From: a virus
Strand: one strand, 5' to 3'
IMG/VR virus record: IMGVR_UViG_3300025732_000343
Span: 1 to 20,150 of that record
DNA length: 20,150 bases
Shown here in pieces: positions 5,447 to 19,631 of this stretch. Made by a program: the position numbers and the translations under genes. Numbering within the stretch: position 1 is the first letter of the stretch; every line of letters begins with the position of its first letter. Below the pieces are notes generated by a model, which searched no databases, was not told the DNA's origin, and was given only the letters and a program-made list of their open reading frames with translations.

Positions 5447-8419
5447 ATGTCTGAAAGAGAACTTCCGCCGCTGCGAGTGAAGATACTCGGGGATTCTTCT
5501 GGATATAATAAAGCCATTGGCACGGCCATTGCGCAAGCCCAACAATTAAAAAGTGTATGTGATCGTATCAGTTTTGTAGGGGCCACTACACAAGCCAAGC
5601 AGTTAACCGCTGCTTTGCGTGGGCTAAATACGCAGAATTTAAGAGGCTTGTTTAATCAAGTAGACACGCTGATTACTAGATTCCGCAACCTGGAAACCAT
5701 TCTTAACAATATCCAGAAAAAGACATTCTCTGGAAAAGGCGGTGGCGGTGGTATGTGGGCCGCTGCTGCTTCAAGTATTGCAAAAAGCATGGCAGATGCG
5801 GTCAAAGCAGCCGCCCCGCATCTAGGCCAGTCCGTAAAAGCCGCCTTGGTGTCTGCTTCAAAAATCATGGATTCAGTGGCAAAGAACTTTGCCAAAAGCA
5901 TGCAGAGCGGCGCAAAAGTAGCAGGAGCAGCAATCACACAAGCTGGACGAACAGTTGCAGCGACTATAAGTGCGGCTGCCTCTGTGCTGTCATCGGCAAT
6001 ACGCACCGCTGGCATGGTAACCGCCGCTGCTATTAGAAGCGCTGGGCAAGTGATGTCTAGGGCTATTGTTACCGCAGGAAGAACGGCTGCTGCTGCCATT
6101 AGTGCTGCCGCTAGAGCCTACGGCACAACGCTTACAGTGCTTGGCGGTGTCACTAGATCGCTCATCAGTGGCGTAGCGTCTATGGGCAGAACGGTAGGTG
6201 GCGTAATATCTACGTCCATTCGCTCCGCTTCTCAGGTGATGAATGCCGCCATCAGAGGAGGATCGCAGATGGGTGCCGCTGCCATTAGAAGTGCTGGTCA
6301 AGTGGCTGCGGCGGCTGTTCGCACAAGTGGTAGCAGGGGAGGTGGTGGCGGTGGCGGTGGAAGTATGGGCGGCGGACTAACCTCCCGCGCTGATATTTAT
6401 ATGCACTCAAATGCTATGCGAGCACTTACCCAACAATCCAAGGGATTGTTGGATATGACTATTCGTTTCGAGCAAAACCAAGTAGCTATCCAAGCCTTTA
6501 CCGGGTCCGCAAGACAGGCTGCTGATGTTATGAAGGAGATACAAGACTATGCTCTTATATCTCCTTACCAAACATTACAACTTGCAGATTCCGCTAGAAA
6601 TATGATGGCCTATGGGCAATCCGCAAAGGATACAATAGCCAACATGAAGATGCTTGGCGATGTAGCGGGCGGCAGCCAGCAACGGCTGGATTTGCTTATG
6701 TATGCTATGTCTCAGGTGACATCGTTAGGAAAATTACAAGGTAATGAACTGCGGCAGTTGACAGAACAAGGATTTAACCCTCTTAGAACCATAGCAGAAA
6801 AAACGCGCAAAGCCAATGAAACAATGGAGCAGGCAATGCAGCGAGTCAACAAAGCAAAAGAAGACGGGTTGGTAACGTCTAAAGATGTCATAGAGGCACT
6901 TAAAGCAGAAACCACAGGAACAGGCCGTTTTACCGACATGGCTAATAAAATGAATAGCTCTTTAGGCGGTATGATAAACCAGCTTAAAGAGCTTATTCAA
7001 AAGGTAGGTATGAATATAATGAAAGCCTTGGAAGATGATATGAAAAAATCATTAACCAAAGCAATTCAACTAGCAAAAGCAATTTCAGCATGGTTTGACG
7101 ACCCAAACAATTACGAAACCATACAGCAAATTGCACGCATGATTAAATTAGTCTTTACGGCAGTGCTTGCTTTTCATGCGATGGGTTTAGCTGTAGCAAT
7201 GGTACGATGGTGGATCGGCTCTGCATTGTCTACTTTGAGGGGCCTGTCCGTTTTATTACTGCCCATTAAAATGCTATTTGCTTCCATCATTCCTATCATC
7301 GGTATGATAGGAAGTGCACTAGCTTTTTTGATGTCTCCGATTGGTTTAGTGATAGCTGGTATAGCCGTTGCCACTGGTGCAATTCTGTATTTTAGTGGCG
7401 CTGGTTCGGCTATGCTTGGATTTTTGGGCGGCAAGTTTGAGGAATTAAAAGGCATTGTGATACCTGTTATTCAAGGTATCACTAAAGCCTTAATGCAAGG
7501 TCAGTTTCAAGAAGCTGGAACATTGGCAATGCTTGGACTGGAATTAGCATTCAGAGTCGGTCTAAGAGAGGTATATCTTATAGGTCGAGGCTTTATTACC
7601 GGGTTTTTGAATGCCTGGACTGATATGTATACAGGTTTGGCGGTGAACACTACTTTAGGGTTTGTGAACGTCGTAAACGCTTTTGCTGGAGCAGGCGTAA
7701 CGCTGCAAAATGCTTTTTCTATTATAATTAGTTCTATACAAGGCATGTGGGATAATGTAGTAACATATATCCAAGGAAAGTGGTTGTACATTAAAAGTTT
7801 CTTCGATAGGGGGATGAATTATCAACAAGAAATGGATAAGTTACAAGCGGACGCAGAGAACCGTAAAGTAACTAGACAGGCCGATTTAGAAAAAACAATG
7901 TCGGAGCGAGGTAGAGCTTTAGATGAAGCAAATAAAGGCCGTACTGATTATGCAATGGGCATGACAAATATCATGCAAAAAGAGGCAGAGCGCACAAAAC
8001 AAGAGCGAGCCTCTGCGGATATGACTGCTGCTAACGCTTTTGATAGTCGCATCGGAACCATCAAAACCGAAATGGCCGATGTTATGCAGACGATCAAACG
8101 GGGCACCGAAGAAATGGGACCACCAAAGCCGGAACCCCCTAGAGGCCCTGACTATAAACCTAAGTTTAGCGCAGGATTAGCTGGTGGCGGTGGTGCGACG
8201 TACAAGGCGTCCGATGCAATGTCCATGTATAGCAGCGAGTATTCCAAGAAAGCGGCTGAACAAGCAGAACGTGTTCGGCAAATGCGCGCCGGGGGCACGG
8301 CTAGCCAATCTCCGACAGTCGCTCAGTTGATATTCACGAATACCTTATTGGGTCAGATTGTCAAAAACACTCAGACCGGTCAAGTAAACCTTACTGCCTC
8401 GGGATTGTCAACACCATGA
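5447..8419 (+). CDS. Tape measure protein, 990 aa
   Basis: The largest gene of the tail block apart from the Thr/Cys-rich protein. It fixes tail length and is threaded inside the tube. Glycine hinges (97-102 and 298-310) flank an Ala-rich segment of 11-residue repeats (about 139-293). Residues about 320-510 match the tape-measure N-terminal domain pattern: FEQNQVAIQAFTGSARQA, YALISPYQTLQLADSARNMM, LGKLQGNELRQLTEQGFNPL. Hydrophobic stretches at about 563-650 (including ASIIPIIGMIGSALAFLMSP) resemble the membrane-active part of other tape measures. A charged coiled-coil region and a Gly/Pro-rich C-terminus follow. Using the common approximation of 0.15 nm per residue, the tail would be roughly 150 nm long. 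A GGAG lies upstream of ATG 5447, and the end overlaps the next gene by 4 bases. Confidence 0.92.
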   Translation: MSERELPPLRVKILGDSSGYNKAIGTAIAQAQQLKSVCDRISFVGATTQAKQLTAALRGLNTQNLRGLFNQVDTLITRFRNLETILNNIQKKTFSGKGGGGGMWAAAASSIAKSMADAVKAAAPHLGQSVKAALVSASKIMDSVAKNFAKSMQSGAKVAGAAITQAGRTVAATISAAASVLSSAIRTAGMVTAAAIRSAGQVMSRAIVTAGRTAAAAISAAARAYGTTLTVLGGVTRSLISGVASMGRTVGGVISTSIRSASQVMNAAIRGGSQMGAAAIRSAGQVAAAAVRTSGSRGGGGGGGGSMGGGLTSRADIYMHSNAMRALTQQSKGLLDMTIRFEQNQVAIQAFTGSARQAADVMKEIQDYALISPYQTLQLADSARNMMAYGQSAKDTIANMKMLGDVAGGSQQRLDLLMYAMSQVTSLGKLQGNELRQLTEQGFNPLRTIAEKTRKANETMEQAMQRVNKAKEDGLVTSKDVIEALKAETTGTGRFTDMANKMNSSLGGMINQLKELIQKVGMNIMKALEDDMKKSLTKAIQLAKAISAWFDDPNNYETIQQIARMIKLVFTAVLAFHAMGLAVAMVRWWIGSALSTLRGLSVLLLPIKMLFASIIPIIGMIGSALAFLMSPIGLVIAGIAVATGAILYFSGAGSAMLGFLGGKFEELKGIVIPVIQGITKALMQGQFQEAGTLAMLGLELAFRVGLREVYLIGRGFITGFLNAWTDMYTGLAVNTTLGFVNVVNAFAGAGVTLQNAFSIIISSIQGMWDNVVTYIQGKWLYIKSFFDRGMNYQQEMDKLQADAENRKVTRQADLEKTMSERGRALDEANKGRTDYAMGMTNIMQKEAERTKQERASADMTAANAFDSRIGTIKTEMADVMQTIKRGTEEMGPPKPEPPRGPDYKPKFSAGLAGGGGATYKASDAMSMYSSEYSKKAAEQAERVRQMRAGGTASQSPTVAQLIFTNTLLGQIVKNTQTGQVNLTASGLSTP
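5861..6325 (+). repeat. Hendecad (11-residue) repeats in the tape measure
   Basis: The translated segment can be written as consecutive 11-residue units, for example AAITQAGRTVA, ATISAAASVLS, SAIRTAGMVTA, AAIRSAGQVMS, RAIVTAGRTAA and AAISAAARAYG. About 13 or 14 units are recognisable, some weakly. An 11-residue period suits a long, slightly twisted helix and is known from other tape measure proteins. Confidence 0.75.
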
Positions 8420-9384
8420 CCGCATATTTAATCGGTTTGAAAAATCAGACAATGGATCGGGATGACGAGGGACATCGTACATACGATCTGACTTGGCACT
8501 ACCGAACCGACGACTACCTAGACGGCCCAGAAACCGTTTTGCAGATGGTCAATACGCTTCATCCCATAGGCAGTGCTTATGTTGAAGGTAATGACTACGA
8601 CCCCTGGGCATTCCGTACACCGGAACTTACCATTGCGCCGCACCGAGATATTCGGGAAGGCGATCCCTGCGCCGACTGGCTAGTTACCTCGAAATTCACA
8701 ACGAAGCCCATGTTTCGTTGTAACGATACCCAGATCGAAAACCCCTTGCTAGAGCCAGTAGCTATCTCTGGCGATTTCGTCCATGTCAGCCGGGAACAAA
8801 AGACCGACCGAAACGGTAAGCCGCTTCTGCATGTAAATTACGAGCCTATGATCGGGCCGGAAGTTGAAGAAAAGATCAGCTATCCAGCAATTACGTTGTC
8901 TTTTAATTCGGCTACCCTGCCTATCAGCATTATCAATTTGCTGATTAACAAGGTAAATGATGCCCCGCTTTGGGGCTTGCCCAAGCGATGCGTGCGATTC
9001 ACGGACTGCAAATGGGAGCGAATCCTGTATGGCGTCTGTTTCTATTACTTTAAGATGACCTACACGTTTGAGACGAACTTTGAAACCTTTGATAAGTTCA
9101 TTCCGGCAGTCGGTTACAAAACCCTGCTTCCCGGCTCTATTCCTTTTCTTCAAGGCAGCTATGCCGTTCAAAAGGATGTTTTGGGGGAAAACGAAGGATC
9201 TGTTATACTAAATTCCGTAGGCGGTCTTGCCGACCCTGACAAGCCGCCATTGATTGTTAATGCTAGCGGAGTCGTAGAAAACCCGCTTACGGGCAGCATA
9301 TTTGGCCCCCTGATTCAGCGGCGGGAAATCGCTAAAGAGGGGAATCTTTTACTTTTGGGAATCCCTAGTACCTTACCAACATGA
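8416..9384 (+). CDS. Unrecognised tail protein downstream of the tape measure, 322 aa
   Basis: I do not recognise a family. The gene occupies the position of distal-tail or baseplate hub proteins in siphoviruses and overlaps the tape measure by ATGA and the next gene by 4 bases, so a tail-tip role is inferred from context. The protein is soluble and mixed alpha/beta, rich in aromatic residues and proline. Recognisable segments are YDLTWHYRTDDYLDGPETVL, an internal ITLSFNSATLPISIINLLIN stretch, RFTDCKWERILYGVCFYYFK, and a C-terminal IPFLQGSYAVQKDVLG part that resembles a beta-sheet arm. It lacks a signal peptide and any catalytic motif I can identify. Confidence 0.6.
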   Translation: MTAYLIGLKNQTMDRDDEGHRTYDLTWHYRTDDYLDGPETVLQMVNTLHPIGSAYVEGNDYDPWAFRTPELTIAPHRDIREGDPCADWLVTSKFTTKPMFRCNDTQIENPLLEPVAISGDFVHVSREQKTDRNGKPLLHVNYEPMIGPEVEEKISYPAITLSFNSATLPISIINLLINKVNDAPLWGLPKRCVRFTDCKWERILYGVCFYYFKMTYTFETNFETFDKFIPAVGYKTLLPGSIPFLQGSYAVQKDVLGENEGSVILNSVGGLADPDKPPLIVNASGVVENPLTGSIFGPLIQRREIAKEGNLLLLGIPSTLPT

Positions 9385-9839
9385 CAAATAAGCAGCAGGA
9401 ACACGTTGCAAGGAGTGCTGGCCCTCCTAAGAACGAGGATCGTTTTACATTGGTTCTTACCACCCATTTTTTGGAATGGGATACCGGCGCAACCACGGAT
9501 GTCCGGTGGGCGTATGATCGTCTTAGCCCGACTGGTACCGGTACTTGTTTTCAGACTCAGCTACGATCCAATCCGGGTAAAAAGCAGAAAGTCACGTTAC
9601 CCGAAGACGACTGCTCCAAGTTTGAGATCATCTTAGGCCACAAGACGCCCCAACTAAGCGGCGACGATCCGCTGATGCAAGAACAACAAAAGCTGAACGT
9701 CATAGAAATCTGGGACGAGGAAAAGCAGATAGGATCTATCGCTCCTGATAGAATGATGTTCGGCCAGTTCAAAGGGCCATTGTATTTTGTATCCACCAGA
9801 ACAACAGCAATTCTCTCGGTAACGGCATTTCCAGTCTAA
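9381..9839 (+). CDS. Unrecognised small tail protein, 152 aa
   Basis: There is no recognisable family. The first 20 residues are polar (NKQQEHVARSAGPPKNEDRF) and the rest looks beta-rich, with FTLVLTTHFLEWDTGATTDV, VTLPEDDCSKFEIILGHKTP, LNVIEIWDEEKQIGSI and a final TAILSVTAFPV strand. It is sandwiched between two genes of the late operon: it overlaps the 322-residue gene by 4 bases, and its TAA is directly followed by the ATG of the Thr/Cys-rich protein. A minor tail or baseplate component is the simplest reading. Confidence 0.6.
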   Translation: MTNKQQEHVARSAGPPKNEDRFTLVLTTHFLEWDTGATTDVRWAYDRLSPTGTGTCFQTQLRSNPGKKQKVTLPEDDCSKFEIILGHKTPQLSGDDPLMQEQQKLNVIEIWDEEKQIGSIAPDRMMFGQFKGPLYFVSTRTTAILSVTAFPV

Positions 9840-12800
9840 ATGGATAATAAGCACTACGTTTTAACCAAGTCGGATGTACAGAAGCTCGGCAACCTATTAC
9901 GGGACGACCGAAACGCTCCTCCTCCGGCTATGATCCCTCGTAGTGAGCCGCAATATACCAAAGCCCCAGATGCTTACTGGGCGTTGCCTCCGTGCGAAAC
10001 CGGGCTTCCCGCTGCTGTGCGAAACGCTGATGGCAGCATCTCCCCCGGCGTGGCTAAGTGCTGTTTGTACAAATACGATGAAGACGCTAACCGCCTAGTT
10101 CCCATGCTAGATGCGGTAGGAATCCCGTTTCGTGCGGTTGTCAGAAATAGCTATCTACGAAGCACCAACGACTTTGTTCAAGTCTACCGCCACAAAGACG
10201 GGACATGGACAAACGAACGACCCGATCTTGTAGTTCAGACCTCTACAACTACAACCACCACAACTGCAAATCCTGGCAGCGTGGCAATAAATCCAGTGTG
10301 CATGGGTAGCTGTTTGTGGGTGGCTGCTCCTGTCACCGGTGGAGTAGGTTGGAAAGATCCCATTGGCGGTTGTTCTAATACGACGACAACTACGACCACG
10401 GCTGCACCGACCACAACGACATCGACTACGGCAGCGCCTACGACAACCACGACTACAACCACACAGGCACCCTGCGAAAAGCAACCTCCTTGCCGCCTTC
10501 GCTGCGTTGCCGGTGTAACCACCACCGTAGGTCCAGGCACAACGACTTCTTGGCCGCCGCCTCCGAGCACAGGCTATGTTTACCAAGTAATTAGCGGCGC
10601 ATGTAACGCGCCTTGTAATTGCTATGGCGCGGGCGATCCTTGCTTCCTGCTAAACGGTGAAATTGATTCTCGCTGCGTTTATGTTACGCCGACCACCACT
10701 GCATCGCCTACAACGACTACTACTTCTGGGCCATTGACCAGCCTTCAAGCATGCACGCTAGCCAATAGTGCTCTAGGCACACCTGCGCCTGGAACATATC
10801 GGGCAGCTACGATTAAGAGCTTTTCTAATGCCTGGACTGTTTGCCAAGACTGCCCAGCGGGTCAAATGCCCTTGTTTCCATTAGGATCAAAAGAGGCATC
10901 CGACCCTGCACCGGATAAGCAGTTTGTGGTTCATGATTCGCCGTGTGCTTTAGATCCTTGCAGCTTGAATACGCAGTTGTACCCAGAAGGCAAGGCCGTC
11001 TATCGTGCGCTTACACTTGCAGATCAGCAATGGTATTGGAACAGTTTGCCGGGATCTAGCGATGTCATTTATTCGGATGCCGACAAATACTTGGCTAATT
11101 GGCGAATCTGTCAACAGTGTCCAAGCGGTCTGCGGCCCGCTTTGCCTCCTAGCGCCTGGATCAATAAAAACGGGTCTGGCAATCCAGAGCTTCGCGGCGA
11201 TGGCATGTTTTATTATGAAACTACCTGTGTTGCTGGACCGGATTGCAATTCTTGCAAACTTGCCGCATCCGGCGCATTTCTTCCAGAGTCCACAACAACC
11301 ACCGTAAATCCATCGCAGACCACCCCAGCGCCGACGACGACAATAGCTCCTTGCGGGTGCGTCCCTCCTTCATATTGCCCAATAGTAGCCGGTGAGTGTG
11401 TTCGTACCGAATGTGTTCCTGGCGGTGCTGGCGCGGCAGGCAAACCTGCATGTCCGACAACAACTACCGGACCAAACCAATGTTTTGACGGTAGAAAAGT
11501 ATGTATCTGCGGATCGACTACCACTACTACGACAACAACAACTACGCGATTTCCAGTCACTACTACACCGATTGGCGGTTGCGGAAATTGTAGCTGGCTA
11601 GCTGCTAGAAATGCATTATCCGAAACGATTCAATGGATTCAGACAGCGGCATGTATTTGCGGAGGCTGTAGCTACCCAGGAACCAGCCCCACTTCTTGCG
11701 GACAGACTACTACTACGGCTTGCACTACGGCTGCTCCGGTTACAACTACAACATCCCGGCCTGGATTTGGTTGTAATTGTTCGGGGACTTGTATCTATTT
11801 TGCCGTTACATCATGGTCAGGAATAACCGGACAACCTGTGACATATTCTTGGTCGTTTTCTTATGCAAGCACCTGTTCGCAACTATCAATAGATCAAGTT
11901 ACAAGAACTGGTTGTGGATGTCCCTGTCCTTCTGATCCGCCTACATCTGCGTGTGATGTAACAGAAACATCTTGCGCCGATTCTACTTTTTGCGGATCTA
12001 GTAGCACTACTGGAGGAGGTATATTTATACCGCTTCCGCTGTGTAATATGCCGCCGCAATATGTTGAATGTGCTTGCTGTACTACCCAGGCTTGTGACAA
12101 ATACTGTACATTCAAAGGCAATGGAACTGGGGGTTGGACAAAGGTAGATGATCCTTGCCCAACCACCTGCCCATGCCCAGCATATCCGCCATCTAACAGT
12201 CAGTCAGATTGCGACATGCGGCGTTATAAGTGCGGTTCGGTCACTCCGACCACGACATCGACATCGCCGCCAAGCACGACGACCACTACACCAGCACCCG
12301 GCGCTTGCTGTTTATCCGGTGCTTGCAATACCCTATCCTATACCGCATGCATCAACGCTGGAGGTGCATGGCAGGGTGCCGGTGTTTCTTGCGCTGGTGT
12401 CACCTGCACTACGACTACAACAACTACAGAAGGCCCAGGGGCTTGTTGTGTCGGCAGTGCCAACGGCATTCCTCCTGGTCCTGGAACTATATGTATTTCG
12501 GCGTATCGATCTTATTGCCAACAGGTATCCGGGATATTTTTCGCCAATACAAGCTGCGCATCGAATCCTTGTGCAGTTGCCACCACAACAGCTTCGCCCG
12601 TAGGACGATGCTGCTGGTCATATAATAACTGGGCAGACTATTTCTGTGCGGATAACCAAAACTCTAATTTTTGTAGCGCTGCTAGTTTAGGTGCGGACGC
12701 TTCTATTAGTTGGGCTGTTGGTAGCACTTGTGCCAATAATCCATGCCCAGGCCCAGGCACAACCACAACAACTACGACAACTACGACCACGACAACGACT

Positions 12801-12929
12801 GCTGTTCCTCTTGGACAGTGCTGTATCGCCGGTGTATGCAGCATGCAAACAGCCGCAAACTGCGCTGCAAATGGTGGGACATGGACTGCTGGATCTAGCT
12901 GCGTAGGCGTGATGTGCCCAGAAGTCTAG
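9840..12929 (+). CDS. Mucin-like Thr/Cys-rich modular protein, 1029 aa
   Basis: Residues 1-130 form a non-repetitive head (YVLTKSDVQKLGNLLRDD, then YDEDANRLVPMLDAVGIPFR) that could anchor the protein to the tail. The remainder is a chain of cysteine-rich modules joined by threonine tracts, at about 136-142, 181-208, 291-295, 485-488, 560-569, 813-817, 857-863 and 974-987 (14 Thr in a row). Modules include C-x-W/Y types at about 156-178, 580-610 and 649-680, a duplicated C-x-x-C-P pair at 300-465, and four G-x-C-C modules at 821-1026. There is no signal peptide, so it probably joins the particle in the cytoplasm as a long, disulfide-braced or metal-bound tail fibre. The Thr tracts are candidate O-glycosylation sites, and three glycosyltransferase genes follow. 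Cellular proteins with similar linkers are secreted, and a cargo or host-adhesion function cannot be excluded. Confidence 0.8.
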   Translation: MDNKHYVLTKSDVQKLGNLLRDDRNAPPPAMIPRSEPQYTKAPDAYWALPPCETGLPAAVRNADGSISPGVAKCCLYKYDEDANRLVPMLDAVGIPFRAVVRNSYLRSTNDFVQVYRHKDGTWTNERPDLVVQTSTTTTTTTANPGSVAINPVCMGSCLWVAAPVTGGVGWKDPIGGCSNTTTTTTTAAPTTTTSTTAAPTTTTTTTTQAPCEKQPPCRLRCVAGVTTTVGPGTTTSWPPPPSTGYVYQVISGACNAPCNCYGAGDPCFLLNGEIDSRCVYVTPTTTASPTTTTTSGPLTSLQACTLANSALGTPAPGTYRAATIKSFSNAWTVCQDCPAGQMPLFPLGSKEASDPAPDKQFVVHDSPCALDPCSLNTQLYPEGKAVYRALTLADQQWYWNSLPGSSDVIYSDADKYLANWRICQQCPSGLRPALPPSAWINKNGSGNPELRGDGMFYYETTCVAGPDCNSCKLAASGAFLPESTTTTVNPSQTTPAPTTTIAPCGCVPPSYCPIVAGECVRTECVPGGAGAAGKPACPTTTTGPNQCFDGRKVCICGSTTTTTTTTTTRFPVTTTPIGGCGNCSWLAARNALSETIQWIQTAACICGGCSYPGTSPTSCGQTTTTACTTAAPVTTTTSRPGFGCNCSGTCIYFAVTSWSGITGQPVTYSWSFSYASTCSQLSIDQVTRTGCGCPCPSDPPTSACDVTETSCADSTFCGSSSTTGGGIFIPLPLCNMPPQYVECACCTTQACDKYCTFKGNGTGGWTKVDDPCPTTCPCPAYPPSNSQSDCDMRRYKCGSVTPTTTSTSPPSTTTTTPAPGACCLSGACNTLSYTACINAGGAWQGAGVSCAGVTCTTTTTTTEGPGACCVGSANGIPPGPGTICISAYRSYCQQVSGIFFANTSCASNPCAVATTTASPVGRCCWSYNNWADYFCADNQNSNFCSAASLGADASISWAVGSTCANNPCPGPGTTTTTTTTTTTTTTAVPLGQCCIAGVCSMQTAANCAANGGTWTAGSSCVGVMCPEV
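10740..11234 (+). repeat. Duplicated C-x-x-C-P-[AS]-G module in the Thr/Cys-rich protein
   Basis: Two halves (residues about 300-371 and 372-465) each carry A-x-W-x-[VI]-C-Q-[DQ]-C-P-[AS]-G followed by a Leu/Pro-rich turn: AWTVCQDCPAGQMPLFPL and NWRICQQCPSGLRPALPP. Each half is preceded by a Y-R-A segment (YRAATI, YRALTL) and ends near another Cys. The order is conserved but most other residues are not, so the duplication is old. Confidence 0.7.
12300..12917 (+). repeat. Four tandem G-x-C-C cysteine modules
   Basis: Modules start at residues 821 (GACCLSGAC), 867 (GACCVG), 922 (GRCCWS) and 992 (GQCCIAGVC), and each ends in a C-x(3-4)-C pair (CAGVTC, CASNPC, CANNPC, CVGVMC). Modules 1 and 4 are the most alike, sharing C-x-A/N-x-GG-x-W and S-x-C. 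Thr-rich linkers separate them. Similar G-A-C-C modules are, to my recollection, common in secreted proteins of Planctomycetota and Myxococcota. Confidence 0.8.
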
Positions 12930-13031: not shown

Positions 13032-15050
13032 ATGGGTAGGTACGAACTGACGGTTGCGATGGCAGCCTACGACGATTTCAACGGAGTATTCTTTTCTAGC
13101 CAAGCATTGCGCATGTACCAAGACATGCGCAATGTCGAAATTGTCATTCTTGACAACAATCCCGATTCGGCAGAAGGTCAAGCCACCAAGTCGTATGTCG
13201 AATCAGTCCAGCATAACGAAGCCATTCGCTACGTCCCGTTCAAAGGCAGCATCGGGACTACCCAGACCAGGGAGCATCTTTTTCAGCTAGCCGAAGGCGA
13301 TGCAGTCCTAGTTATGGATTGCCATGTTTTGTTACAAGCTAATGCAATCTACCATCTAAAGAAGTTCTACCGCGAAGCCTCGGAACAGCAGCGAAAAGAC
13401 CTGTACACCGGCCCATTGCTTATGGACGGTTTGAACTTCGTGATGACCCACTTTGAGTGCGAATGGCGCGATCAAATGTGGGGTGTATGGGCAACTGCCT
13501 GGAAGCATCCTGACGGCACGGCAGTCCTATGCCGCCCGACCGAGAACAACAAAGTCAAAATGCGCCCGCTGATGACAGATGGCCCTTGGGCTACTATTGA
13601 TGTCCCTTGGCCCGCACACGAACAGCAACTACTGTCCAAGGGCTATAAAGTCATGGGCATGGATAGCACTGATGCCCCGTTTGAAATCCCGGCACAGGGG
13701 CTTGGCCTGTTCAGCAGCACCAAAGAACATTGGCTCGGGTTCAATCCAAATTTCAAAGCCTTCGGGGGCGAGGAGTGCTACATCCATGAAAAGTATCGTC
13801 AACACGGTCGAAAGGCTATGTGCCTGCCGTTCCTGAAATGGAATCACCGATTCGGGCGGCCCGGCGGACCTAAGTACCCGTTGACGCTAGAAGGCAAGAT
13901 CCGTAACTATATCCTTGGATTCGACGAGCTTGGTTTTGATCGTGAACCGGTACGAAAGCATTTTGTCGATGAAGTGGGTGTTGCTCAGCTTAAATATGAT
14001 GCGATTGCGGCGAACCCCATTGGATTCGACCCAATGCCAATGCCAAACCTACCGGTAAACGTGCCAGACGTGCAGGCAAAGAGCAATCTAGGTTTGCCAT
14101 TGCCTGTTGTGGCAGATAGTTTTTCGGATGTCATTGAATTTATCGTAAAGACTCCAAGAGACTTGGATCAGCATGTCAATGCGTTCATGCAATGGACACT
14201 AGGCTGCGATAGCGCTGTCGAAGTCACCAAGCGGCGAGAATCTACAGCCTTTTTGCTGGGCGCTATGGGGCGTAAGGTTTGCGGCGGAAAATGCCAGAAA
14301 GAGTCGTGCGACAAACAAAGTTGTAACAAAGTGGCGTATGTTACAAGCTACCAAGAGGAAGGCGACTCTCTTATCGGGTTGCTACAAGACTTGGTTAAGT
14401 CGCACACTGGCCGACCGCTTGAGTTTACCGTATCGCAGATGAACCACGATACGATGCTAGAAACCATACCAGCATCCGATCTGCTGTTCATCGACACCCG
14501 GCATCACGGTGAGCGCCTGTATGCGGAACTGACCGCATACGCCCCAAACATCGCAAAACGTATCCTGATTCACGATACGGCTACATTCGGAGTCAAGGGC
14601 GAAAATGATGGTAAAGGCATGTTTTGGGCGATCCGAAAGTTCATAGACGAGAATCCAGAATGGTTCATCGCGGAACACAAGGATCATCAATATGGAATGA
14701 CTGTACTTTCCAAACTGCCTGAGGATAAACCAGAAGAATTGGTCAAACCTTGGCCCAAGTCGGACAAAGACGGTAAGCCTTGCGGTTGCGGACAGAACGT
14801 CAAAAAGTTCCTAAAAATGATCGGTATCGAAGCCAGCGAAGGCTGTTCCTGCAATCGCCGAGCAGCCGTTATGGATCAGATGGGGCCGCAATGGTGCCGT
14901 GAAAATATCGACGAGATTCTGAACTGGCTCAAAGAGGAGGCCGATGCTAGAAACATGGGCCACCTGTTTATTCGCCCGGCGGTAAAGCTGATGGTTATGC
15001 GAGCCATTCGGCAAGCCGAAAAGGATGAAAAATCCGGTGCCTGTAGCTAA
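13032..15050 (+). CDS. GalNAc-transferase-like GT2 / methyltransferase-like fusion with Cys-bearing tail, 672 aa
   Basis: Domain 1 (about 1-310) is a GT-A glycosyltransferase of the GT2/GT27 kind. It has an MAAYDDFNGV start, EIVILDNN, a metal-binding D-C-H (96-98) in place of DxD, GGEE (245-248) and a late WNHRF (270-274), an order reminiscent of polypeptide GalNAc-transferases. Domain 2 (about 365-560) resembles the class I methyltransferase/cephalosporin-hydroxylase-like family: DLDQHVNAF, LLFIDTRHHGERLYAELTAY (484-503), LIHDTATFG (512-520), and a final GMTVLSK. It carries a Cys cluster (417, 421, 426, 431). Domain 3 (about 583-665) has CGCGQNVKKFLKMIGI, CSCNRRAAVMDQMGPQWC and a helical end, a tail domain I recall following similar domains elsewhere. 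A transfer of sugar to virion protein and its modification is a reasonable inference. The acceptor and the reaction of domain 2 are unknown. AGGAG lies 10 bases before ATG 13032. Confidence 0.8.
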   Translation: MGRYELTVAMAAYDDFNGVFFSSQALRMYQDMRNVEIVILDNNPDSAEGQATKSYVESVQHNEAIRYVPFKGSIGTTQTREHLFQLAEGDAVLVMDCHVLLQANAIYHLKKFYREASEQQRKDLYTGPLLMDGLNFVMTHFECEWRDQMWGVWATAWKHPDGTAVLCRPTENNKVKMRPLMTDGPWATIDVPWPAHEQQLLSKGYKVMGMDSTDAPFEIPAQGLGLFSSTKEHWLGFNPNFKAFGGEECYIHEKYRQHGRKAMCLPFLKWNHRFGRPGGPKYPLTLEGKIRNYILGFDELGFDREPVRKHFVDEVGVAQLKYDAIAANPIGFDPMPMPNLPVNVPDVQAKSNLGLPLPVVADSFSDVIEFIVKTPRDLDQHVNAFMQWTLGCDSAVEVTKRRESTAFLLGAMGRKVCGGKCQKESCDKQSCNKVAYVTSYQEEGDSLIGLLQDLVKSHTGRPLEFTVSQMNHDTMLETIPASDLLFIDTRHHGERLYAELTAYAPNIAKRILIHDTATFGVKGENDGKGMFWAIRKFIDENPEWFIAEHKDHQYGMTVLSKLPEDKPEELVKPWPKSDKDGKPCGCGQNVKKFLKMIGIEASEGCSCNRRAAVMDQMGPQWCRENIDEILNWLKEEADARNMGHLFIRPAVKLMVMRAIRQAEKDEKSGACS

Positions 15051-15703
15051 AGTTTAAGCAACTTTAGCCAGTGTTCGACCTTCATCATAAAAGTAGGCAG
15101 ATCGTAAAAAACGTCTGCCTGCTTTAGTTTATGGGTCGTATAAGTCGCCAGCGTTCCTTCGTACATAAACACTGGGCAGCCAATACTGTGTGCAATGTGG
15201 CTAAAGCCAGAGTCGCACCCAACAAACAAAGCACAAGTAGACAATGCCTGCGCCGCTGTCGGCAGGCTCAGGTGTGCCCCTAAGCGGATACCTTTGTATC
15301 CGTTTAGTTTCAGTACCGACTTAATCTCCGCGATAAGCGAAGTAGGCGGATTCTTTTCCTCTGCTGAGGATATACCGTCAAACTGGTAGCAGAACGTCCG
15401 TTGAACCCGATCATGCCGCCAGCGATACTTTGCATCTGCGGCCAACGGCGGATAGCACCAGTTCAGCCAGGGATCTACCTTGGTCTTTCCCGGATCTCGC
15501 ACAAACACCGGTCGGTACGGCTGCTCGGTGAACAGGGAATCGATCTGCTCGAATCTCCCGTAATAGTCCATGTGGAACCACTGTGTACCCAGCTTGTAAG
15601 CCACTTTGTGCCTTTGACCTAAAATGGTCATTAGGCAATAGCTGGTGAAGTGATCCCCTAGATTCGTATTATGCGGTTCGTAGATGATGGACGAGTCTAA
15701 CAT
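15047..15703 (-). CDS. GT-B glycosyltransferase-like (GT9/heptosyltransferase C-half-like), 218 aa
   Basis: The C-terminal half has the nucleotide-sugar-binding pattern of GT9/ADP-heptosyltransferases: LSTCALFVGCDSGFSHIAHS (154-173), then IGCPVFMYEG. The usual counterpart is D-[ST]-G-x-x-H-[LI]-A-x-[AS]-[LIF]-G-x-P. The N-terminal half has YEPHNTNLGDHFTSYCL, similar to the G-D-x-[LF] start of this fold, but at 218 residues the protein is much shorter than a full heptosyltransferase (over 300). It may be a compact phage version or work with a partner. It is the last gene of the minus-strand operon. It begins 4 bases after the GT2 gene, with a GAGG ribosome site spanning that gene's stop, and its own TAG overlaps the plus-strand TAA at 15047-15050. 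Confidence 0.65.
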   Translation of the reverse strand: MLDSSIIYEPHNTNLGDHFTSYCLMTILGQRHKVAYKLGTQWFHMDYYGRFEQIDSLFTEQPYRPVFVRDPGKTKVDPWLNWCYPPLAADAKYRWRHDRVQRTFCYQFDGISSAEEKNPPTSLIAEIKSVLKLNGYKGIRLGAHLSLPTAAQALSTCALFVGCDSGFSHIAHSIGCPVFMYEGTLATYTTHKLKQADVFYDLPTFMMKVEHWLKLLKL

Positions 15704-15707
15704 CGGA

Positions 15708-16448
15708 TTACCTCGACAATGCTTCTGGAAAGCGGTTTCGGATGTCTAGCAGGGTGTTTAAGTACCAGGGATCATACGATGGTACGATCAGACTGCCAGT
15801 ACATGAATGCGGGGTTTTACCCCACCATGTTTCGTCAGCCGCGCCCTGTGAATAACCGCTACAATGGTTTTCAGCATTTTCTCCCCAGCGATAGACATAG
15901 CTCGGGATTTCGGGGCGTCCGGGAGGTACAGCATCCGAGGCTCGTCGCAGGAACATCTGATCGTGCGCGCACGCTTTCGTATCCTGGAATCCGCCGATCT
16001 GTTCCAGCAATTCTCGGCTAACCGTAATAGACGACCAAAACCGCCCTTCGGTCGGGATCTTGTTTAGCCCTAGATAATCTGCGAAGATCGTATCCGGGTA
16101 TGTCCATTTCACAGATGGATCGGCGTACATTTCTGCTGCCAATTCCAAATGCAAAGGCAAGAATCCATCATCATCGTCCCAAATAGCCACGGCATCCCAA
16201 TCGATGCCCTCGGCGGCTTCCAGCATCTTTGTGTACTTTAGCGGCAAAGACGGTATTCGCTCTGCCGTTTTCACTAGCAGCACGTTCTTTGGATCGTTGT
16301 GAACCCTTACGATCTGGCATTCGGATGGCCGGTCATCGCAGATGACTAGCACCGCATCCTTGTGTGTCTGATCCAGAAAGCACTGAATAGCGTTTGCGAT
16401 GGTATCCGTGCGATGATTCCACACCGGCATCAAGCATAAGAATTTCAT
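15708..16448 (-). CDS. GT2 family (GT-A) glycosyltransferase, 246 aa
   Basis: The N-terminus has the GT-A start FLCLMPVWNHRTDTIANAI, with CFLDQTHKDAVLVICDD (the common S-V-L-x-Q-T-x-x-x-x-E-[IL]-I-V-x-D-D pattern) and an acidic IWDDDDGFLPLHLE (89-102) that supplies the metal-binding DxD. Later parts, SSITVSRELLEQIGGFQDT and DQMFLRRAS, are the usual G-G-F and acidic acceptor-site region, and YVYRWGENAENHCSG follows. It presumably moves a sugar from a nucleotide donor. The acceptor is not identifiable. It starts at an ATGA overlap with the 76-residue gene and has an AGGA ribosome site 6 bases before the ATG. It is soluble, with no membrane segment, so a cytoplasmic protein or DNA acceptor is more likely than a membrane lipid. 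Confidence 0.85.
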   Translation of the reverse strand: MKFLCLMPVWNHRTDTIANAIQCFLDQTHKDAVLVICDDRPSECQIVRVHNDPKNVLLVKTAERIPSLPLKYTKMLEAAEGIDWDAVAIWDDDDGFLPLHLELAAEMYADPSVKWTYPDTIFADYLGLNKIPTEGRFWSSITVSRELLEQIGGFQDTKACAHDQMFLRRASDAVPPGRPEIPSYVYRWGENAENHCSGYSQGAADETWWGKTPHSCTGSLIVPSYDPWYLNTLLDIRNRFPEALSR

Positions 16449-16675
16449 TCGTAGTCCTCGTTCTCTCTGTTTTTAAGGAATAGCCCTAAACCGCCGTAGT
16501 CGCTTCGGTCATTTTCATGGAAGATCGGATGGCCTAGCTCCAGCCTACGTCGCATAATCTCAATCTTTTCGGGACTTCCGGGGGCGGCATCGGTAGCTAC
16601 AAACATATTCATATCCTCCTCGTTGTACGGGTGATTGCCGTACCGAAGAATGTATTCGTACTTGTTGCTAGCCAT
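16445..16675 (-). CDS. Unrecognised acidic 76-aa protein
   Basis: A short acidic protein without a family I can name. It reads smoothly, with EYILRYGNHPYNEEDMNMFV, a Gly/Pro turn, a helix (PEKIEIMRRRLELG), then HPIFHENDRSDYGGLGLFL. The H-P-[IL]-F-H-x-x-D-R-x-D-Y-x-G-L-G portion looks like a conserved patch and recalls small hypothetical proteins of planctomycete-type genomes, from memory only. It overlaps the SbcC C-lobe gene by 8 bases and the GT2 gene by 4, so it is translated from the same message. Good overlaps on both sides and no competing frame support it as a real gene. Confidence 0.7.
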   Translation of the reverse strand: MASNKYEYILRYGNHPYNEEDMNMFVATDAAPGSPEKIEIMRRRLELGHPIFHENDRSDYGGLGLFLKNRENEDYE

Positions 16676-17213
16676 CTATTTGTACCTTGTGTTCAAAGTC
16701 CATGAACTCTTGGATATGCGTGATTAGGATGATCTGAATGCCGAACTCGTCCGCAAGCTCAGCCAATAGCGACCGCATGGGATCTCGGTAATTCGCCGAT
16801 AGAAACCGAAACGGCTCGTCTAGCACTAACACTTTTGCTGGCCTGGGGCGGCTCAGCATCAAGCAAGCCAGCCGCAAGCCGAACGACGCGACATCCAGCA
16901 CCCCGCCTCCGCAACTATTCACCGGGTCCAATTCGTATCCGTCAGCGTCTTTGTAAACGCCACGGACTTCCGTTTGGCCTCGCTTCTGCTCGAATACAAG
17001 CACAAACTCCATCGCCTTGTCGCCAAAAACGGCCTTTAGGCAGCGTGTGACGACATAGCCGATCTGACGTTGGCATTGTTCCTGGCAGTCAGTGCCGATG
17101 GTTTGCAGCGTTTGCTTGGCCTGCGAAATAGCCTCTTGTAGCAATTTGTTTTGCTCCAAGAGGCTATTTGTGCTTTCCAACGCTATAACACCGGCGTCCC
17201 GCTTAGCGACCAT
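16668..17213 (-). CDS. SbcC/Rad50 C-lobe as a separate protein, 181 aa
   Basis: This is the second half of an SMC-type ATPase head. A helix (IALESTNSLLEQNKLLQEAI) leads to a beta core, then the ABC signature region SCGGGVLDVASFGLRLA (about 100-116), Walker B KVLVLDEP (127-134), a D-loop-like FRFLS and the His switch LITHIQEF (H166). There is no Walker A, which is in the gene at 18477-19631, so this product must pair with that N-lobe to bind ATP. The signature lacks the canonical L-S-G-G-E, reading N-S-C-G-G-G. I prefer ATG 17213, 8 bases before the stop of the coiled-coil gene. ATG 17261 would add 16 residues that overlap that gene's end and look like an out-of-frame shadow. Confidence 0.85.
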   Translation of the reverse strand: MVAKRDAGVIALESTNSLLEQNKLLQEAISQAKQTLQTIGTDCQEQCQRQIGYVVTRCLKAVFGDKAMEFVLVFEQKRGQTEVRGVYKDADGYELDPVNSCGGGVLDVASFGLRLACLMLSRPRPAKVLVLDEPFRFLSANYRDPMRSLLAELADEFGIQIILITHIQEFMDFEHKVQIDG

Positions 17214-17451
17214 TATTGATAGCCGCGAGCGTGTCTCCGTAATCGTTAAGAAATTGCTCATATTGTTCCGTATAAGTCGGTTCGGTTGTTCTGATATACT
17301 CGTCCAGTTCGTCTAGCTCTTTTCGGGCAGACTCCACCGTATCATGGCCCAGCGATTTCAACGCCGCCATCAACTGATCCTTCTGGCCCTCTAGTCGTGC
17401 CTTGTGTTCCTTGGCTTGTTCTAATTTCTTTAGAATGTCCGCAACTTCCAC
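17203..17451 (-). CDS. Small coiled-coil protein of the split SbcC/Rad50 cassette, 82 aa
   Basis: Residues 1-45 (ADILKKLEQAKEHKARLEGQ, KDQLMAALKSLG) and 47-80 (SARKELDELDEYIRTTEPTY, YEQFLNDYGDTLAAI) are charged helices with heptad-like spacing, forming a helical hairpin. A GTG start at 17451 has a strong AGGAG eight bases upstream. It could serve as part of the returning coil that is missing from the split SbcC or as a linker between lobes. It overlaps the zinc-ribbon-like ORF by 110 bases in another frame and its stop lies 8 bases beyond the C-lobe ATG. Similarity to any known gene is not claimed. Confidence 0.7.
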   Translation of the reverse strand: MEVADILKKLEQAKEHKARLEGQKDQLMAALKSLGHDTVESARKELDELDEYIRTTEPTYTEQYEQFLNDYGDTLAAINNGR

Positions 17452-17590
17452 AATCTGTTCTCCTGGCTACTATGTCGCACGGCTGTCCGGGGTAAACTCT
17501 ACCCCGAAAAGGACAGTCGATCTGCTGTGTAACGTCTTCGCCCGCTGACCGCGATATTACTTCACCGCATGTCCGGCAGACGATAATCAT
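17342..17590 (-). CDS. Small zinc-ribbon-like protein (about 58-82 aa)
   Basis: ATG 17590 forms an ATGA junction with the SbcD stop. The first 58 residues carry VCRTCGEV (C5, C8), then DCPFRGRVYPGQPCD, and CGSCGHSKE (two further CxxC cysteines), a zinc-ribbon-like C-x2-C ... C-x2-C arrangement. The remaining residues (Thr/Gly/Pro-rich) are read from bases that overlap the coiled-coil gene in a different frame and may be a tail of low significance. An overlap of 110 bases is large, so the true product may be a short zinc protein. It might be a hook accessory for the split SbcC or an unrelated DNA-binding protein. Confidence 0.5.
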   Translation of the reverse strand: MIIVCRTCGEVISRSAGEDVTQQIDCPFRGRVYPGQPCDIVARRTDCGSCGHSKEIRTSQGTQGTTRGPEGSVDGGVEIAGP

Positions 17591-18510
17591 GCGAGCACCT
17601 TTTGCAATACGGCTGCAAGCTCTTTTCGGACAGCTTCTCTGGCTTCGACTTGAATGGCGGCTTTTAGCCGATCTGTAAACGAGTCGGCAGTATTCTCCAG
17701 GTCGTTAAGCTGCTCAATGACTTCACCGGCAATCTTAGCTGCCGGTAATTCATTTACGGCCCATTGCGGCTCTGAAATGTTTGGCAGTGCTTTTCGCTCG
17801 ATTGCGCCGTTACTATACAGAATACCGACCGATGGCTTTAGGTGCTTCTGGTCGGAGTTGTGCGGAATGAATCCACCGTGGTTGTAGATAGTTCCAGCTT
17901 GCCAAGGAATATGGTTATCGCCGATCAACGCCGCATGGAACTCTTTGAATAGGTAATCGGATTGCCCTAGTTCCGCTGTTTCCGGTGCGTGGGCATGGCA
18001 AGCCGATCCAGCATAAATGTATTTGTGAACCACCAACAAATTTAACACTTCTGGATTCGTAATTTCCGGCTTCGGTGTTTGGTACTGGTCCCAGGGCATT
18101 GCCCAGATGCGGAAACAATCTCCAGTAGGGTAATCGAAAATCGAGTTCCATCTGTTTATGGGCAGGTCGATAATCTTTTCAGACCTCACCATTGCGCCGT
18201 AAGCCCCTCGCATTCGTCGGCTGTAATCATGCCCTTCTAAGTCGTGGTTTCCCGGAATGGCGTACATAGGAGGCAGATTGTGCATAGCCCACGAAACAAC
18301 CTCGGAGGGCGGATTCCATTTATCGAAGACGTCACCGGCGCAGATGATCGGCAAGTCTTCTGTGACTGCCATATATGTCAGTTCACGGTACACTTGCTCC
18401 ATTACGCTGTACCAGCACTTTTCGGTTCTGGCAGATGGTGTAGTGTGCCGAATATGCAAATCCGATACTAACAGGGCTATTGGTTTAGGGGCTTTTGGCA
18501 CAGTGGGCAT
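17587..18510 (-). CDS. sbcD: SbcD/Mre11-like nuclease, 307 aa
   Basis: A metallophosphoesterase with Mre11-type motifs in order: SDLHI (D17, H19), CAGDVFDKW (D60, D63), PGNHD (N88, H89), VVHKY (H162) and IGDNHIPW (198-200, then NHGGF). The G-D-N-H version of the fifth motif is a slight variant of the usual G-H-x-H. The family cuts DNA ends and hairpins with an SbcC/Rad50 ATPase; in phage it is involved in replication and recombination (T4 gp47, T5 D12-type). A C-terminal helix (about 240-307) may bind the SbcC coil base. The gene overlaps the SbcC N-lobe by 34 bases and the next ORF by 4. At 307 residues it is a little shorter than E. coli SbcD, which is about 400. Confidence 0.88.
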   Translation of the reverse strand: MPTVPKAPKPIALLVSDLHIRHTTPSARTEKCWYSVMEQVYRELTYMAVTEDLPIICAGDVFDKWNPPSEVVSWAMHNLPPMYAIPGNHDLEGHDYSRRMRGAYGAMVRSEKIIDLPINRWNSIFDYPTGDCFRIWAMPWDQYQTPKPEITNPEVLNLLVVHKYIYAGSACHAHAPETAELGQSDYLFKEFHAALIGDNHIPWQAGTIYNHGGFIPHNSDQKHLKPSVGILYSNGAIERKALPNISEPQWAVNELPAAKIAGEVIEQLNDLENTADSFTDRLKAAIQVEAREAVRKELAAVLQKVLA

Positions 18511-19631
18511 AGCTTTTGGGTTTCCTTTTCCTGCTGCAACTCGATTTCTAGTTTTTGGACTCTATCACCAGCAAATAGGTACTTGCCCTGCCAATCGGCA
18601 ATAGCACTAAGCGTCTGGTATATTTTGTCCCTGTGTTGCTTTTTGCGGTTTAATTCCTCGCCAGCCGCCAACAATTTTTGCAGTTGGTCCGAAAACTTGG
18701 TCGTAACCAGATTCAGTCGTTGAAGTTGTTCAACAGCGTTTACCAGAGTCCGCAATCGCTGCTTCGCAGTATCTAACTTTTTAGCTGGTTTTGCAAGCGC
18801 AGATAGTTGTTTTCCAAGTGCATTTGTTTTAGCTATATCCTCGCAAACGCCATCAACTGAAAGCAAGCATTCGGCCAGCTTGATCTTTTTGGCCTTTGCT
18901 TTGGTTAGCCGTTGTGCCATATCCCGTATCCCAACAGCCGCTACCAGCATTTCGCCAACGGCGCCGATCTGGTCAGATACCGATTCCAATCTGGATATAG
19001 CTTGCTCTAACTTGCCTTTGCGTTCGCGTGCCGATTCTAAGTCGTAGTACATTTTTTCTAATGCTGTTAGCCTTTCATCAGCTACGCTAATCCAGGCCAT
19101 GTCCTCGCATGTCTTGGATTGCTGCTCAGCCAGCGTTTCCAGGGATTGTACAGTAGCCCTGATTGCATTGTACCTGGAGTTTATTTCTGAGTTTGCCTGA
19201 TCGATCACTGACAGGTCTACAATCCGGTTTAGTTCGCGGGCCATCTGCCCCGGCGTCAGCGTCAGCAGAAACGGGGGATCGTGTTGCCCCTGTAAGCAGA
19301 TTTCGGAGAGTCCCAAGACTTGCCGCACCGGTGCAGGCTGCGCGTTGGCGCAAGCAACATACACGCCGCCATCTACGGAGTAGCCGTAGCCATCCTCATT
19401 CTTAAACCGAATGACCGAGCCGTTGTCTGTTCTCAGCTTAACGAAAGTGTTATCCTCGCCATGCTTCTGCAAACCGCTGATAGGCTTATGCTCAACCACC
19501 CAGCGAATAGCCCTAAACACCGACGATTTACCGGCGTTGCTGGGGCCGACAATGACGGTGATTCCAGGGGATATTGGAATATCAAGCTCGCTATGAGCCT
19601 GAAAGTTCTTTAGCTCGACGGATTTAAGCAT
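18477..19631 (-). CDS. SbcC/Rad50 N-lobe ending at a zinc hook, 384 aa
   Basis: The N-terminal half of a Rad50/SbcC-type ATPase: LKSVELKNFQAHSELDIPI, Walker A GPSNAGKSS (29-37), and a Q-loop region CLQGQHDPPFLL. Residues about 140-370 are coiled coil (LETLAEQQSK, YYDLESARERKGKLEQAISR, TAKQRLRTLVNAVEQLQRLN). The protein ends KLCPLCQKPLNQ, a C-x-x-C zinc hook just six residues before the stop. It lacks the return coil, signature and Walker B. Those are in separate genes downstream, after SbcD. SbcC/Rad50 tethers and unwinds DNA ends for the SbcD nuclease. It overlaps the upstream exonuclease by 22 bases and SbcD by 34, so all are likely co-translated. Confidence 0.9.
   Translation of the reverse strand: MLKSVELKNFQAHSELDIPISPGITVIVGPSNAGKSSVFRAIRWVVEHKPISGLQKHGEDNTFVKLRTDNGSVIRFKNEDGYGYSVDGGVYVACANAQPAPVRQVLGLSEICLQGQHDPPFLLTLTPGQMARELNRIVDLSVIDQANSEINSRYNAIRATVQSLETLAEQQSKTCEDMAWISVADERLTALEKMYYDLESARERKGKLEQAISRLESVSDQIGAVGEMLVAAVGIRDMAQRLTKAKAKKIKLAECLLSVDGVCEDIAKTNALGKQLSALAKPAKKLDTAKQRLRTLVNAVEQLQRLNLVTTKFSDQLQKLLAAGEELNRKKQHRDKIYQTLSAIADWQGKYLFAGDRVQKLEIELQQEKETQKLCPLCQKPLNQ

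Follow-up and report, generated by a model that had tools for sequence, protein, structure and literature searches.

The stretch of DNA analysed here, referred to as the window, is the 20,150-base virus record IMGVR_UViG_3300025732_000343 (positions 1 to 20,150). It carries a fusion gene, P0001, with an N-terminal domain predicted to have the fold of the polypeptide N-acetylgalactosaminyltransferases (GalNAc-Ts), and this gene lies next to P0004, a gene rich in threonine tracts. Taken as a whole, the data are best explained by P0001 being the initiating enzyme of a phage-encoded O-glycosylation of the P0004 Thr tracts, which is considered probable. Fold, motif conservation, gene linkage and gene fusions were computed; the acceptor, the mechanism and the extension roles were inferred. 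The principal features are as follows.

9840..12929, + strand: P0004, a Thr-tract, Cys-rich protein of 1029 amino acids (aa), the proposed acceptor
13032..15050, + strand: P0001, an open frame of 672 aa consisting of a GalNAc-T-fold glycosyltransferase (GT), a degenerate O-methyltransferase-fold domain and a helical tail
13032..14036, + strand: GT-A domain of P0001, residues 1–335, supported by an AlphaFold model and fold matches
13317..13325, + strand: D-C-H, putative metal/donor motif (D96, H98), residues 96–98
13764..13775, + strand: GGEE motif, within F-G-G-E-E at residues 244–248
13839..13853, + strand: W-N-H-R-F motif, residues 270–274; H272 aligns with the His of GHxxR in GalNAc-Ts
14079..15047, + strand: C-terminal region of P0001, class-I O-methyltransferase fold followed by a Cys-containing helical tail
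15047..15703, − strand: P0002, GT9/GT-B-like glycosyltransferase (PF01075), candidate extension enzyme
15708..16448, − strand: P0003, GT2 glycosyltransferase with a WDDDD motif (PF00535, below cut-off), candidate extension enzyme

The original prediction had read D-C-H, GGEE and W-N-H-R-F in the fusion gene at 13032 as the motif order of polypeptide GalNAc-Ts. The motifs are present in that order. All 75 viral and bacterial relatives share the residues D96, H98, E248, Y250, K254, W270, H272 and F274 with P0001, and the motif residues are therefore not chance occurrences. The AlphaFold model of the GT domain gives a pLDDT of 92.6. When compared with the PDB by Foldseek, the best 50 matches listed are all polypeptide GalNAc-Ts (best E-value = 3.6e-14). 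VIA-align gives Z scores of 20.2–24.3 for the 29 GalNAc-T entries listed, and 18.6 for the next family, chondroitin polymerase. The structural resemblance is specific to the polypeptide GalNAc-T family.

By sequence, the N-terminal 335 aa score as PF00535 (GT2) just above the gathering cut-off (24.9 vs 23.3 bits), and all 37 members of alignment A1 match PF00535 at E-values up to 0.1. NCBIfam gives weak polysaccharide-GT matches to P0001, and a PDB sequence search with P0001 alone showed no meaningful match. A profile of the C-terminal half is collinear with GalNAc-T7 over the H-x-x-R region and GGE. Compared with the GT2 enzyme of E. coli K4, the chondroitin polymerase, P0001 shares the GT-A fold but displays DxH in place of DxD and a polypeptide-GalNAc-T-like C-terminal half, and has no polymerase partner domain.

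The resemblance to GT27 enzymes, e.g. GalNAc-T2, covers the GT-A fold (Z = 24.3 over 255 residues), the order DxH, GGE, H-x-x-R and, as proposed here, the Thr/Ser tract acceptor. Identity is however only 13%. The WGGEN motif of GT27 is replaced by FGGEE, where E248, present in all 75 relatives, stands at the position of the GalNAc-T Asn. The family scan gave no lectin family match, and an O-methyltransferase fold is found in place of the ricin-type lectin domain. Thus the GalNAc-T likeness previously claimed holds for fold and motif order but not for family identity, and P0001 is not a strict GT27 member. The P0001 family is in addition found in phages and bacteria and is perhaps inverting. 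Inverting enzymes such as the GT7 galactosyltransferases carry a catalytic Asp (GGED) where GalNAc-Ts have Asn. With E248 at this position, an inverting mechanism is the better guess by analogy, and E248 would probably be the catalytic base. From the GalNAc-T fold, D96, H98 and H272 are predicted to bind a divalent metal. In a viral structure library, a single clearly closer relative came up, encoded by an uncultured phage; none of the phage isolates in the collection encodes the enzyme, and plasmid searches were likewise empty.

The C-terminal part of P0001 displays a Rossmann, class-I O-methyltransferase fold (4oa8, E-value = 2.7e-7, and many other fold matches). The glycine-rich S-adenosylmethionine (SAM) motif I is not found in P0001; TKRREST takes its place, and close relatives have KRREST or KRRET. 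The motif is intact in the relative L013 (VVELGVARGGST) and similar in L050 and L070. Marine relatives end shortly after the GT domain and have no methyltransferase-like domain at all. The domain probably served an ancestral methylation of the glycan and is probably non-catalytic in P0001. Calmodulin-like PDB profile matches obtained with the C-terminal domain alone were regarded as chance and discarded in favour of the fold match.

P0004 ends 102 bases upstream of the P0001 start and contains 20 runs of at least 3 Thr, which agrees with the claim that the fusion gene directly follows a Thr-tract gene. The protein has 166 Thr in all, with Thr-tract stretches for example at residues 536-580 and 965-990, and 85 Cys; Cys and Thr are both abundant in its marine counterparts too. 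Each of the four Thr codons occurs (ACA 35, ACT 27, ACG 22, ACC 20), so the tracts are not a product of nucleotide slippage. The tape-measure gene lies upstream of P0004, as do two small genes of the tail region.

5447..8419, + strand: tail tape measure protein (PF20155, E-value = 2.3e-20, and PHROG tape-measure matches)
8416..9384, + strand: P0005, conserved tail-region gene syntenic with the Thr-tract gene, same order in relatives
9381..9839, + strand: P0013, conserved tail-region gene syntenic with the Thr-tract gene, same order in relatives

The pairing of GT and Thr-tract gene recurs in other phages. A scan of viral contigs for GT relatives gave 45 loci, which merged at 85% identity into 26 distinct loci. 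An adjacent gene with a run of at least 4 Thr is present in 21 of the 26, compared with 2 of the 106 remaining genes of these loci (Fisher p = 1e-17, a statistic that ignores relatedness). The reverse search, in which the Thr-tract protein's N-terminal domain was the query, found the GT as the next gene in 14 of 14 loci with enough downstream DNA; several of these are near-copies, leaving about nine distinct, and two more loci are cut off. In the marine locus L020, the Thr-tract neighbour matches PHROGs for virion structural (9.5e-18) and tail-spike (1.7e-12) proteins. A Planctomycetaceae metagenome-assembled genome (L050) shows the order tape-measure gene, one further gene, Thr-tract gene and GT, with McrBC-type genes beyond, and in the tree Planctomycetota rows are the nearest non-viral neighbours of the window. 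This gene order and the tree together suggest a Planctomycete host for the window phage.

Thr tracts are also found near the N-terminus (MTTTTTT..AP) of other tail-region proteins of relatives, including a P0005 homologue. These tracts are further candidate glycosylation sites.

Tail-region proteins of relatives with N-terminal Thr tracts: L139 2499-2933; L141 2283-2705 and 6541-7539; L142 2790-3218

Relatives of the GT are not confined to phages. A scan of a genome collection gave 80 loci from many phyla, one of them (L060) in the cultured Desulfofustis glycolicus DSM 9705, and many bacterial loci have one to three tandem small proteins beside the GT with a common leader and Thr, Ser or Pro-rich tails. 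The shared leader resembles a twin-arginine translocation (Tat) signal, RR..LK...LP..WTKPVV..V..PAHA. Matches to this motif number 40 in 396 kb within 3 kb of the GT (0.101 per kb) and 3 in 469 kb farther away (0.0064 per kb), a 16-fold lower density. The motif is present in 29 of 78 bacterial loci and in none of the viral loci; searching the reversed sequences as a control yielded one match. The motif was read off the first examples, open reading frame (ORF) calling was simple, and neither the bacterial nor the viral proximity statistics allow fully for common descent. The bacterial partners mostly do not carry the Cys-rich modules of the phage protein but keep the Thr/Ser/Pro tails. The Thr/Ser-rich stretch is thus the only feature common to bacterial and phage partners, and this is the strongest reason to regard it as the acceptor. 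The original idea of a GalNAc-T-like enzyme acting on virion Thr tracts gains independent support from the specific fold, the recurrent phage pairing and the Thr/Ser-tailed bacterial partners.

Some bacterial GT proteins are fused to PqqD-like or HprK-like kinase domains, and in some loci a separate PqqD gene is nearby. The kinase domain of the L096 protein is related to HprK-related kinase A (TIGR04352; E-value = 5.6e-24) but is not a member of that family (84.7 bits vs a cut-off of 200). GT25, GT9 and FkbM methyltransferase domains are found on other bacterial GT proteins. In the window, the proteins scanned include no such kinase and gave no match to a PqqD or ribosomally synthesized and post-translationally modified peptide (RiPP) recognition element (RRE) family, which are present in the bacterial homologues. 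The leader-bearing Thr-tailed proteins may form a RiPP-like class that is glycosylated. Small proteins with the Tat-like leader and poly-Thr tails, either single or as tandem paralogues, were seen upstream of bacterial GT genes at the following positions.

Bacterial Thr-tailed small proteins: L055 6240-6911; L067 5266-6137; L068 5648-6911; L082 1452-2916; L104 6171-6986

Two more glycosyltransferases had been assigned to the same system, a GT2 followed by a GT-B-like gene on the other strand. Both are there, but in reverse order, the GT9/GT-B-like P0002 coming first and the GT2 P0003 second. P0002 matches PF01075 (GT9) with an E-value of 2.3e-6 and 27.5 bits (cut-off 22), the match spanning only 41 residues. 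P0003 displays an invariant DDD, and relatives of it were found. Fusions elsewhere tie both to the system: a P0002-like domain is fused to the GalNAc-T-like GT in L085 and L122, and in L103 a P0003-like domain is fused to the GalNAc-T-like GT and a methyltransferase-like domain. In relatives of the window the GT and its Thr-tract neighbour are retained, but genes resembling P0002 and P0003 are exchanged or missing, as would be expected if the first sugar were fixed and its extension varied. A P0003-like GT2 gene also directly adjoins the GalNAc-T-like gene in phage and bacterial contigs (L065, L013, L014, L077).

In the proposed pathway, the N-terminal domain of P0001 would use a nucleotide-sugar to glycosylate Thr (and Ser) side chains of the P0004 tracts, and P0002 and P0003 would probably extend or decorate the glycan. 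The glycan might serve adsorption, or might shield or stiffen the tail protein. For the GT family as a whole, in phages and bacteria, placing sugars on threonine tracts is the most likely activity. A broader proposal, put forward tentatively, is that the family consists of widespread, inverting, GalNAc-T-shaped polypeptide O-glycosyltransferases for Thr/Ser tracts. In bacteria, PqqD-like domains would direct these enzymes to Thr-tailed proteins that carry a leader and are exported by the Tat route; in Planctomycete-type phages the enzymes would have been captured for mucin-like tail proteins.

Several points weigh against P0004 glycosylation by P0001. Gene proximity alone is no proof of the acceptor. 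Sequence likeness to GalNAc-Ts is weak (E-values of 0.009 to 0.037 for the 75-row profile A3 against the PDB). P0004 has no family match in the family scans of window proteins, and its location in the virion therefore rests on synteny and relatives. The viral loci L031, L036 and L043 have no adjacent Thr tract. By composition, a Thr-tailed neighbour is found in 13 of 66 bacterial loci, and most loci have none by either simple method; composition calling undercounts these partners, as Thr repeats can be masked by spurious ORFs on the antisense strand (seen in L062 and L122), and the leader-motif scan was added alongside it.

Many phage GT2 enzymes modify the host O-antigen, and the target could accordingly be a host cell-surface polymer or lipid carrier, with receptor masking or serotype conversion as the outcome and the Thr-tract adjacency reflecting merely a cargo spot in the tail-fibre region. 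The PF00535 score of the GT domain and the polysaccharide GTs that are the best sequence matches of the broad profile agree with such a target. In fold, however, no polysaccharide enzyme comes as close as the polypeptide GalNAc-Ts, the GT and the Thr-tract gene are paired across divergent phages in both search directions, and Thr/Ser-tailed proteins lie beside the bacterial homologues. Family scans of the window proteins moreover listed no flippase or membrane-anchor family, and a host-surface target is judged unlikely. A DNA or lipid acceptor is also given a low rank, since the protein that recurs beside the enzyme is rich in Thr/Ser.

Glycosylation could also fall on P0004 outside the Thr tracts, in its Cys-rich modules or folded domains, or on other tail proteins. 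The abundance of Cys in P0004 and its marine counterparts is in keeping with this, but most partner proteins of the enzyme in bacteria have the Thr/Ser/Pro tails and not the Cys-rich modules, and such sites are judged somewhat less likely still than a host-surface target. That P0001 is a catalytically dead relic, as the replaced SAM motif in the window and in close relatives might indicate, is very improbable: none of the 75 relatives departs from the GT catalytic motifs, and decay is limited to the methyltransferase-like part. O-glycosylation of the Thr tracts by P0001 is the preferred reading.

Phage-encoded enzymes reportedly glycosylate the virions of mycobacteriophages (Freeman et al. 2023, as cited in PMC12691614). 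The system proposed here is similar in that phage enzymes would glycosylate their own virion proteins. Those systems are from isolated actinobacteriophages, whereas the window system has no isolate in the collection and is paired with a dedicated Thr-tract gene.

For the bacterial homologues, RRE-glycosyltransferase fusions have been flagged by RRE-Finder, in the available parts of the accounts without further description (PMC7470986, PMC12710340). Those homologues that carry PqqD-like domains or have a PqqD gene nearby, together with small precursors bearing a leader, appear similar to these, but Thr tails, the GalNAc-T fold and phages are not mentioned in those parts of the accounts (PMC7470986, PMC12710340). 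A literature search on phage or Thr-rich GalNAc-T-like systems and HprK-related cassettes, with preprints and most subscription papers outside its scope, found no description of the enzyme-acceptor pairing.

If the proposal is correct, GalNAc-T-shaped enzymes give Thr tracts a mucin-type decoration outside eukaryotes too: prokaryotes have a counterpart, of which a phage version acts on virion proteins. It would explain the poly-Thr, Cys-rich tail proteins of many uncultured aquatic phages, give concrete chemistry to the PqqD/HprK-type bacterial cassettes and provide glyco-engineering with a simple pairing of enzyme and acceptor.

Other features were seen elsewhere in the window. Within the tape-measure gene the GC content drops to about 0.41 at 6500-8000, compared with about 0.50 around it. 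The region 267-2693 (+ strand) encodes a protein with carboxypeptidase-regulatory-like domains and approximately 6 copies of an AIKAKTDNLPxDPADASDIAASF-type repeat. An SbcC/Rad50-like ATPase is apparently split in two genes, the regions concerned being 16668-17261, 17587-18510 and 18477-19631 (all − strand). The N-terminal half has a P-loop and ends right after a CPLC zinc-hook-like motif, the C-terminal half carries the signature and Walker B motifs, and an SbcD-like phosphoesterase is situated between the two halves.

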